Positions 1,044 through 3,796 of a stretch of DNA of 28,395 bases are shown here, piece after piece (the stretch's first letter is position 1; every line of letters starts with the position of its first letter). The stretch covers positions 1 to 28,395 of IMG/VR virus record IMGVR_UViG_3300025128_000236; one strand, 5' to 3'. Below the pieces are notes generated by a model. That model was not told the origin of the DNA. It did not search any database and saw only the letters and a program-made list of their open reading frames with translations. The DNA is from a virus. Made by a program: the position numbers and the translations under genes.

Positions 1044-1072
1044 AGTATATAAAAAAACCCCACGACTGTCAA
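1044..1072 (-). promoter_or_regulatory. Sigma70-type promoter embedded in a terminator
   Basis: On the minus strand TTGACA (1072-1067) and TATACT (1049-1044) are separated by 17 bases (1066-1050). The -35 box is in the loop of the terminator hairpin at 1055-1089, and the terminator T-run forms part of the spacer. The expected start is at about 1037, the first base of the ATG of the 882-1037 gene. Confidence 0.7.
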
Positions 1073-1089
1073 TAGCAATCGCAGGGTTT
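1051..1089 (-). terminator. Leftward intrinsic terminator after the 29-aa peptide gene
   Basis: On the minus strand AAACCCTGCGA (1089-1079) pairs with TCGTGGGGTTT (1065-1055) through 11 pairs, two of them G-U, followed by seven T (1057-1051). Because the wobble pairs become mismatches on the other strand, the terminator is directional. It stops transcripts of the 1108-1197 gene while the next promoter begins inside it. Confidence 0.8.
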
Positions 1090-3375: not shown

Positions 3376-3767
3376 AGTGTTTATAGGTGTTAATCATTTT
3401 TTTATTAAAAAATTTTTGGGGTACACTTCGTTCCCCCCAAACCCCATAAGGAATACCTAGAGGTATTCTCTAAATTTACCCAAAAAATTTTCTTAACGTA
3501 CCCTATGCGTGTGCCACGGGGGGTATCCTATATACTATATATACGGACACCAGAAAATCTCTAGAATCCATGTAAACCACCTAGTGGCTGTATTTTAGGG
3601 ATAAATATTCCGACAATATTCCTAGGAATACCCTAGGGGGTAGCTGTATATTTACCCTGAGTATATATATATAGGCTCCCTGGGGGGTTCCTATGAACAT
3701 TATACACCCTATTTCCAATTTTGTCTAGTACTATTTTGTCGCAGTCTACATTATTATAAAAAAACAC
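3376..3767. other. Gene-free region rich in CTAG-centred palindromes and G/C runs
   Basis: No credible reading frame is present. The stretch holds TTTGGGG/CCCCAAA (3415-3421 and 3435-3441), GAATACCT-AG-AGGTATTC (3451-3468), the perfect 14-base palindrome TATTCCTAGGAATA (3617-3630), TACCC/GGGTA around CCCTAGGG (3629-3642) and ATAGG/CCTAT around a GGGGGG run near 3672-3694. CTAG occurs six times. GGAATACC-like motifs recur on both strands. It lies between the early genes and the terminase genes, so it may hold regulatory sites or a packaging start (cos or pac). That role is inference from position. Confidence 0.5.
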
Positions 3768-3796
3768 TTGACAAAATTGAATATAAGTACTATAAT
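3768..3796 (+). promoter_or_regulatory. Perfect-consensus sigma70 promoter for the late operon
   Basis: TTGACA (3768-3773), 17 bases, TATAAT (3791-3796): both boxes and the spacing match the bacterial consensus exactly. The expected start near 3803 gives a leader of about 80 bases before the first gene at 3883. No similar strong promoter was noticed downstream, so it may drive most of the head and tail genes. Confidence 0.85.

Follow-up and report, generated by a model that had tools for sequence, protein, structure and literature searches.

A probable composite terminator–promoter element recurring in ocean SAR11 phages, with a predicted leaderless start of the next early gene

The window considered here is the whole of a 28,395-base virus record, which is a fragment; the subgroup of Pelagibacter phage HTVC033P is characterised by core replication genes and by genomes of about 53–55 kb. 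HTVC033P is the nearest isolate, with a terminase match of 89% over the full length and 79.5% identity in the aligned part of positions 242–1097, which lie in the early region. Based on the close terminase and the shared early region, the window probably belongs to the HTVC033P subgroup. HTVC033P is a SAR11 phage of the HMO-2011 type (subgroup IX) and was reported among the most abundant pelagiphages (PMC9038755); that paper mentions neither promoters nor terminators.

The genes of interest are all encoded by the minus strand. The first unit consists of one gene for a hydrophobic membrane micropeptide of 29 aa (1108–1197), which has the ribosome-binding site AAAGGAG. Its probable promoter lies at 1256–1228 and includes TTGACA (1256–1251) and, 17 bp further, TAGGGT (1233–1228) preceded by TG (an extended -10 box); the predicted start is A1221, and the ATG is at +31. 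Relatives have TTGACA-17-TAAGAT or a similar sequence at this site. The second unit starts with a gene for a 51-aa protein (882–1037, ATG at 1037–1035), predicted to be leaderless. It is followed by genes for proteins of 53 aa (770–931), here with an AAAGG-type ribosome-binding site, of 55 aa (619–786), a family that in other contigs supplies the leaderless gene most often seen after the element, and of 90 aa (310–582), with AAAGGAG. The unit ends with a plain terminator (248–279), a near-identical copy of which was found at 2096 of HTVC033P. Searches of Pfam and PHROGs with seven proteins gave no match.

Between the two units lies a hairpin (1089–1055, minus strand), AAACCCTGCGATTG-CTATTGA-CAGTCGTGGGGTTT, with 14 pairs and the loop CTATTGA, followed by a run of seven T (1057–1051), the first three of which pair with the leading AAA of the hairpin. 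A free energy of -19.9 kcal/mol was calculated for its fold (z -5.5), and none of 200 shuffled sequences folded as well. The first-pass annotation, made from the letters alone, described a stem of 11 bp with two G-U pairs; the length holds if the AAA/UUU pairs are left aside, while the G-U pairs are three. A stable G+C-rich hairpin running directly into a T-run identifies an intrinsic terminator, and its proposed role in closing the 29-aa gene was upheld by the comparisons below.

The same bases contain the boxes of a promoter. The -35 box TTGACA (1072–1067), which is also present in HTVC033P and in viral contigs, had been placed in the loop; in fact, TTGA is in the loop and CA belongs to the 3′ arm. 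The -10 box TATACT (1049–1044) follows at 17 bp, so that the spacer includes the T-run and contains the G4T7 tract of the terminator. Together, the two boxes show 11/12 matches to the consensus, which is that of E. coli, and such conserved hexamers about 17 bp apart are typical of a sigma-70 promoter. The predicted transcription start, the seventh base after the -10 box, is 1037, the A of the ATG of the 51-aa gene, and a ribosome-binding site is absent; the gene can thus be classed as leaderless by prediction.

Within the window, eight terminators were found versus 2.3 expected, and promoter-like matches numbered 23 versus 26.5 expected in such AT-rich DNA. Because of this, a lone promoter match in the window is weak evidence, and one could suppose that the terminator works alone, that the -35 and -10 boxes are a coincidence and that the genes beyond it depend on read-through for their expression. 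We regard this as highly improbable. Chance is ruled out by the presence of the same composite twice in HTVC033P and in many contigs, where the spacing remains 17 although the hairpins differ, and by the constant distances between the -10 box and the start codons. Moreover, a read-through message would need a ribosome-binding site, and none is present.

In HTVC033P, bases 1–46000 of the early strand contain five terminators, two of which, at 612 and 1244, are composites. The element at 612 has the form TTGACA-17-TATTAT and is followed by a leader with AAAGGAG, while that at 1244 has the form TTGACA-17-TATACT with an ATG at +10. The gene behind the second element is different from that in the window (gp06 type). 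It is worth noting that the annotated ATG of gp06 (1255–1446) at 1255 sits inside the terminator hairpin, and that an in-frame ATG at 1297, 14 codons later, suits the promoter better; the element may therefore predict start codons missed by annotation. No composite was found in the first 50 kb of HMO-2011, CRP-345 and HTVC115P, so it is not universal among the relatives.

To assess recurrence, viral contigs were scanned with the seeds TTGACA and GGGGTTTTTT, the spacing being left open over a wide range, which gave at least 119 stretches. Of the 124 sites among the matches listed, 94 had a -10-like hexamer at a distance of exactly 17 bp, 6 had one at 16 bp and 5 at 18 bp; with a hairpin required, spacing 17 was found in 82 of 104. 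A hairpin with the 5′ flank was formed by 51 of the 66 distinct spacing-17 elements listed (77%), compared with 2.3% for shuffled 5′ flanks. The placing of a promoter inside the terminator, with TATACT 17 bp after TTGACA, as first proposed for the window, is thus borne out by a spacing that stays fixed across unrelated hairpins. Judging by these comparisons, the window contains a single example of an element that recurs in ocean SAR11 phages.

The inverted repeat overlaps the -35 box, a classic place for an operator, and could in principle be a DNA site for a phage or host repressor, its resemblance to a terminator being secondary. The character of the hairpins makes this very unlikely. The arms differ widely in sequence and stay complementary throughout, and the G-rich and C-rich arms are even swapped in three loci (L034, L038, L214) with the -35 box retained. 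Among the matches listed, G-U pairs, which break DNA symmetry, are present in 55 of 61 hairpins, which fits RNA and not a DNA palindrome; together with the arm swaps, this indicates conservation of the RNA fold. In addition, the one-sided T-run is always there.

A set of 79 contigs, picked by primase only, contained 69 terminators. Promoters with at least 10/12 matches accompanied six of these (8.7%), compared with a mean of 1.4% at shifted positions, although the worst shift gave 7.6%, which is near the observed value. All 11 promoters with at least 9/12 matches in this set had spacing 17. It should be noted that many contigs are closely related and that the leaderless class comes mostly from one clade, so the element counts overstate independence. 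A direct BLAST search of the 74-base element against phage records gave unrelated short matches only, and Rfam gave no match at threshold, its three weak ones being due to chance. When the sequences were aligned with MAFFT, which anchored on the -35 box, RNAalifold consequently gave a consensus fold without pairs, and the test with shuffled 5′ flanks was used in its place. A figure of 0.996 for pairing with the own arm was set aside as circular, the hairpins having been selected by pairing. Upstream of a conserved gene, the contigs L054, L108, L087 and L132, among them two of 115–208 kb, have a hairpin of a related kind, CCCCACCTTGACAGTGGGG, from which TATCTT is 17 bp away.

The position of the start codons was also restricted. 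Among the matches listed, the first open start after the -10 box of the viral elements was at +7 (10 cases), at +10 (7 cases) or mostly at 20–31, and none was found at 2–6, 8–9 or 11–19; one further case at +1 is seemingly spurious. A few more elements with imperfect stems had a start at +8 or +7. The +7 and +10 classes have no ribosome-binding site, while AAAGGAG or a similar site precedes most starts of the 20–31 class. Starts at +7, +8 or +10 behind the element belong to about eight gene families that are unrelated to each other. That unrelated genes should begin at exactly +7 or +10 without a ribosome-binding site sustains the proposal, already made from the window alone, that the message starts at about 1037 on the A of the ATG and is leaderless. 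The suggestions of an operator, of chance and of read-through were accordingly rejected on the evidence of spacing, start codons, G-U pairs and T-run.

Transcription in bacteria does not always begin at precisely the same base, which leaves room for a genuine promoter whose working start is a few bases off, so that the message has a very short leader and not none. Seven elements with the ATG at +10, and a few with it at +8, point in this direction, as the predicted start would give these a leader of 1–3 nt. We consider this unlikely, since +7 is the largest single class, with no start at 2–6. Furthermore, among the matches listed, 17 of 18 distinct leaderless-type elements have A at +7; so do 31 of 55 others, A being the commonest base in leadered elements too.

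Start codons were also compared among related phages, as a conserved start elsewhere would have told against the proposal. Homologs of the 51-aa gene were retrieved from 27 contigs; in 26 of these the gene has another context and its start is one or two codons further out, in several cases behind a ribosome-binding site. For the other genes behind the element, the start codon coincides with a conserved N-terminus. In L136, L150 and L102 the 53-aa gene directly follows the element and is near-leaderless, with its ATG at +10 and the same N-terminus (with one extra Met in L102), and that of the 55-aa family is likewise unchanged. Genes of this kind, found with and without a leader, offer natural matched pairs for the study of leaderless translation.

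In the same phages, promoters without a terminator also have an ATG at +6 or +7 (strong ones in L162, L172, L179, L164, L174 and L028). Leaderless starts are therefore not confined to the composite and may be general in these phages. The earlier remark that reports of leaderless messages in phages are rare should be qualified, given that the lambda cI mRNA is the textbook example and that such mRNAs are common in some alphaproteobacteria. The numbers given are 375 for Caulobacter and 171 for Sinorhizobium (PMC4117421), which makes a leaderless 51-aa message plausible in a SAR11 host.

The elements also follow an order. Two or more were found on forty locus-strands, some sharing a contig, among the matches listed. 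Where a leaderless-type element has a partner, it is the downstream one in all 14 loci listed; in 13 of them the upstream partner gives a leader that includes a ribosome-binding site, and one is without a clear start call. Of 20 cases inspected, 18, counting the window, have a one-gene unit for a membrane peptide of 22–29 aa before the first element, and this unit frequently has a TTGACA-17 promoter to itself. In HTVC033P (L153) the micropeptide gene, at 529–597, is unannotated. One such family is, judging by its coding sequences, under protein-level selection; the differences among its fourteen distinct versions are mostly at third codon positions (813 versus 511 and 254). Related SAR11 phages have a series of a promoter, the membrane micropeptide of about 22 aa, a first element giving a leader with a ribosome-binding site, small genes, a second, leaderless element, small genes and a terminator. 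In the window, unlike in these phages, the micropeptide is directly followed by the leaderless element.

In bacterial genomes, spacing 17 was also the commonest (46 of 117 sites), so part of the signal simply reflects that G4T6 spacers can occur in promoters. Hairpins were found alongside 26% of the spacing-17 sites, which indicates that the composite exists outside phages, sporadically and at a lower frequency. Since the bacterial scan also yields the element, uniqueness to phages is not claimed. In three Geobacter-type genomes (L248, L276, L295), a conserved terminator–promoter overlap, TTGACACGGGGTTTTTTT, was observed with a -10-like hexamer at 17 bp and an ATG about 9–10 bases after it.

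Based on the above results, we suggest that the element is, with good probability, a composite terminator and promoter read by the host sigma-70 RNA polymerase, and that the next message is leaderless. The terminator, the promoter, the fixed spacing, the start-codon classes and the order are supported by comparison; activity in the cell, the exact RNA ends and the use of the host polymerase are inferred. The host enzyme with sigma-70 would transcribe the micropeptide unit, after which the 5′ and 3′ arms of the RNA would fold and stop the message in the T-run at about 1055–1050. On the DNA, the loop and 3′ arm would serve as the -35 box of the next promoter, with the G4T7 tract in the 17-bp spacer and TATACT as the -10 box. 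The AUG of the next message would then stand at its very 5′ end, transcription starting at A1037, and the 51-aa gene would be translated without a leader. The likely benefit is that early units are kept apart and insulate themselves while using as few bases as possible.

The element has the G+C-rich hairpin, the T-run and the directionality of Rho-independent terminators, but its 3′ half is also the -35 box and spacer of a promoter. Likewise, it shares TTGACA, the 17-bp distance and TATACT with sigma-70 promoters, but its spacer has the G4T7 tract of a terminator and its -35 box lies in a hairpin loop and arm. With known leaderless mRNAs (lambda cI; Caulobacter and Sinorhizobium) it has in common a predicted start on the A of the AUG and no ribosome-binding site, while here, as known from sequence, this is set by a recurrent element common to unrelated early genes of phages. 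No earlier description of such a terminator–promoter overlap was found in the open-access literature, including that on pelagiphage promoters and on phage leaderless mRNAs. About 55 bases would end one message, start the next and fix its translation start, and this is repeated in an abundant group of ocean phages, where the element also led to an unannotated membrane peptide of about 22 aa at the head of the early region.

A further step may be added to the composite reading, namely that a polymerase remains bound to the DNA after terminating in the spacer, is captured in place and restarts at the underlying promoter for the next unit, the last step of this relay being leaderless. In single-molecule work, polymerase diffused on DNA after termination and re-initiated at nearby promoters, and the authors expected a dependence on the distance between terminator and promoter (PMC6978380). 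The element similarly puts a promoter within reach of the terminated polymerase, overlapping the terminator rather than neighbouring it, and the units stand in tandem order, as would suit a relay on an incoming single-copy genome. Nevertheless, the overlap is sufficiently explained by compaction, the promoter would also be blocked by any polymerase terminating there, and the published work concerned the E. coli enzyme in vitro, the authors stating that the process was unobserved in cells. We therefore consider this addition doubtful, though the overlap offers a natural system in which the recycling of polymerase after termination could be tested.

Elsewhere in the window, at 3699–3796, two near-perfect divergent promoters were observed: TTGACA-17-TATAAT on the plus strand (3768) and TAGACA-17-TATAAT on the minus strand (3727).
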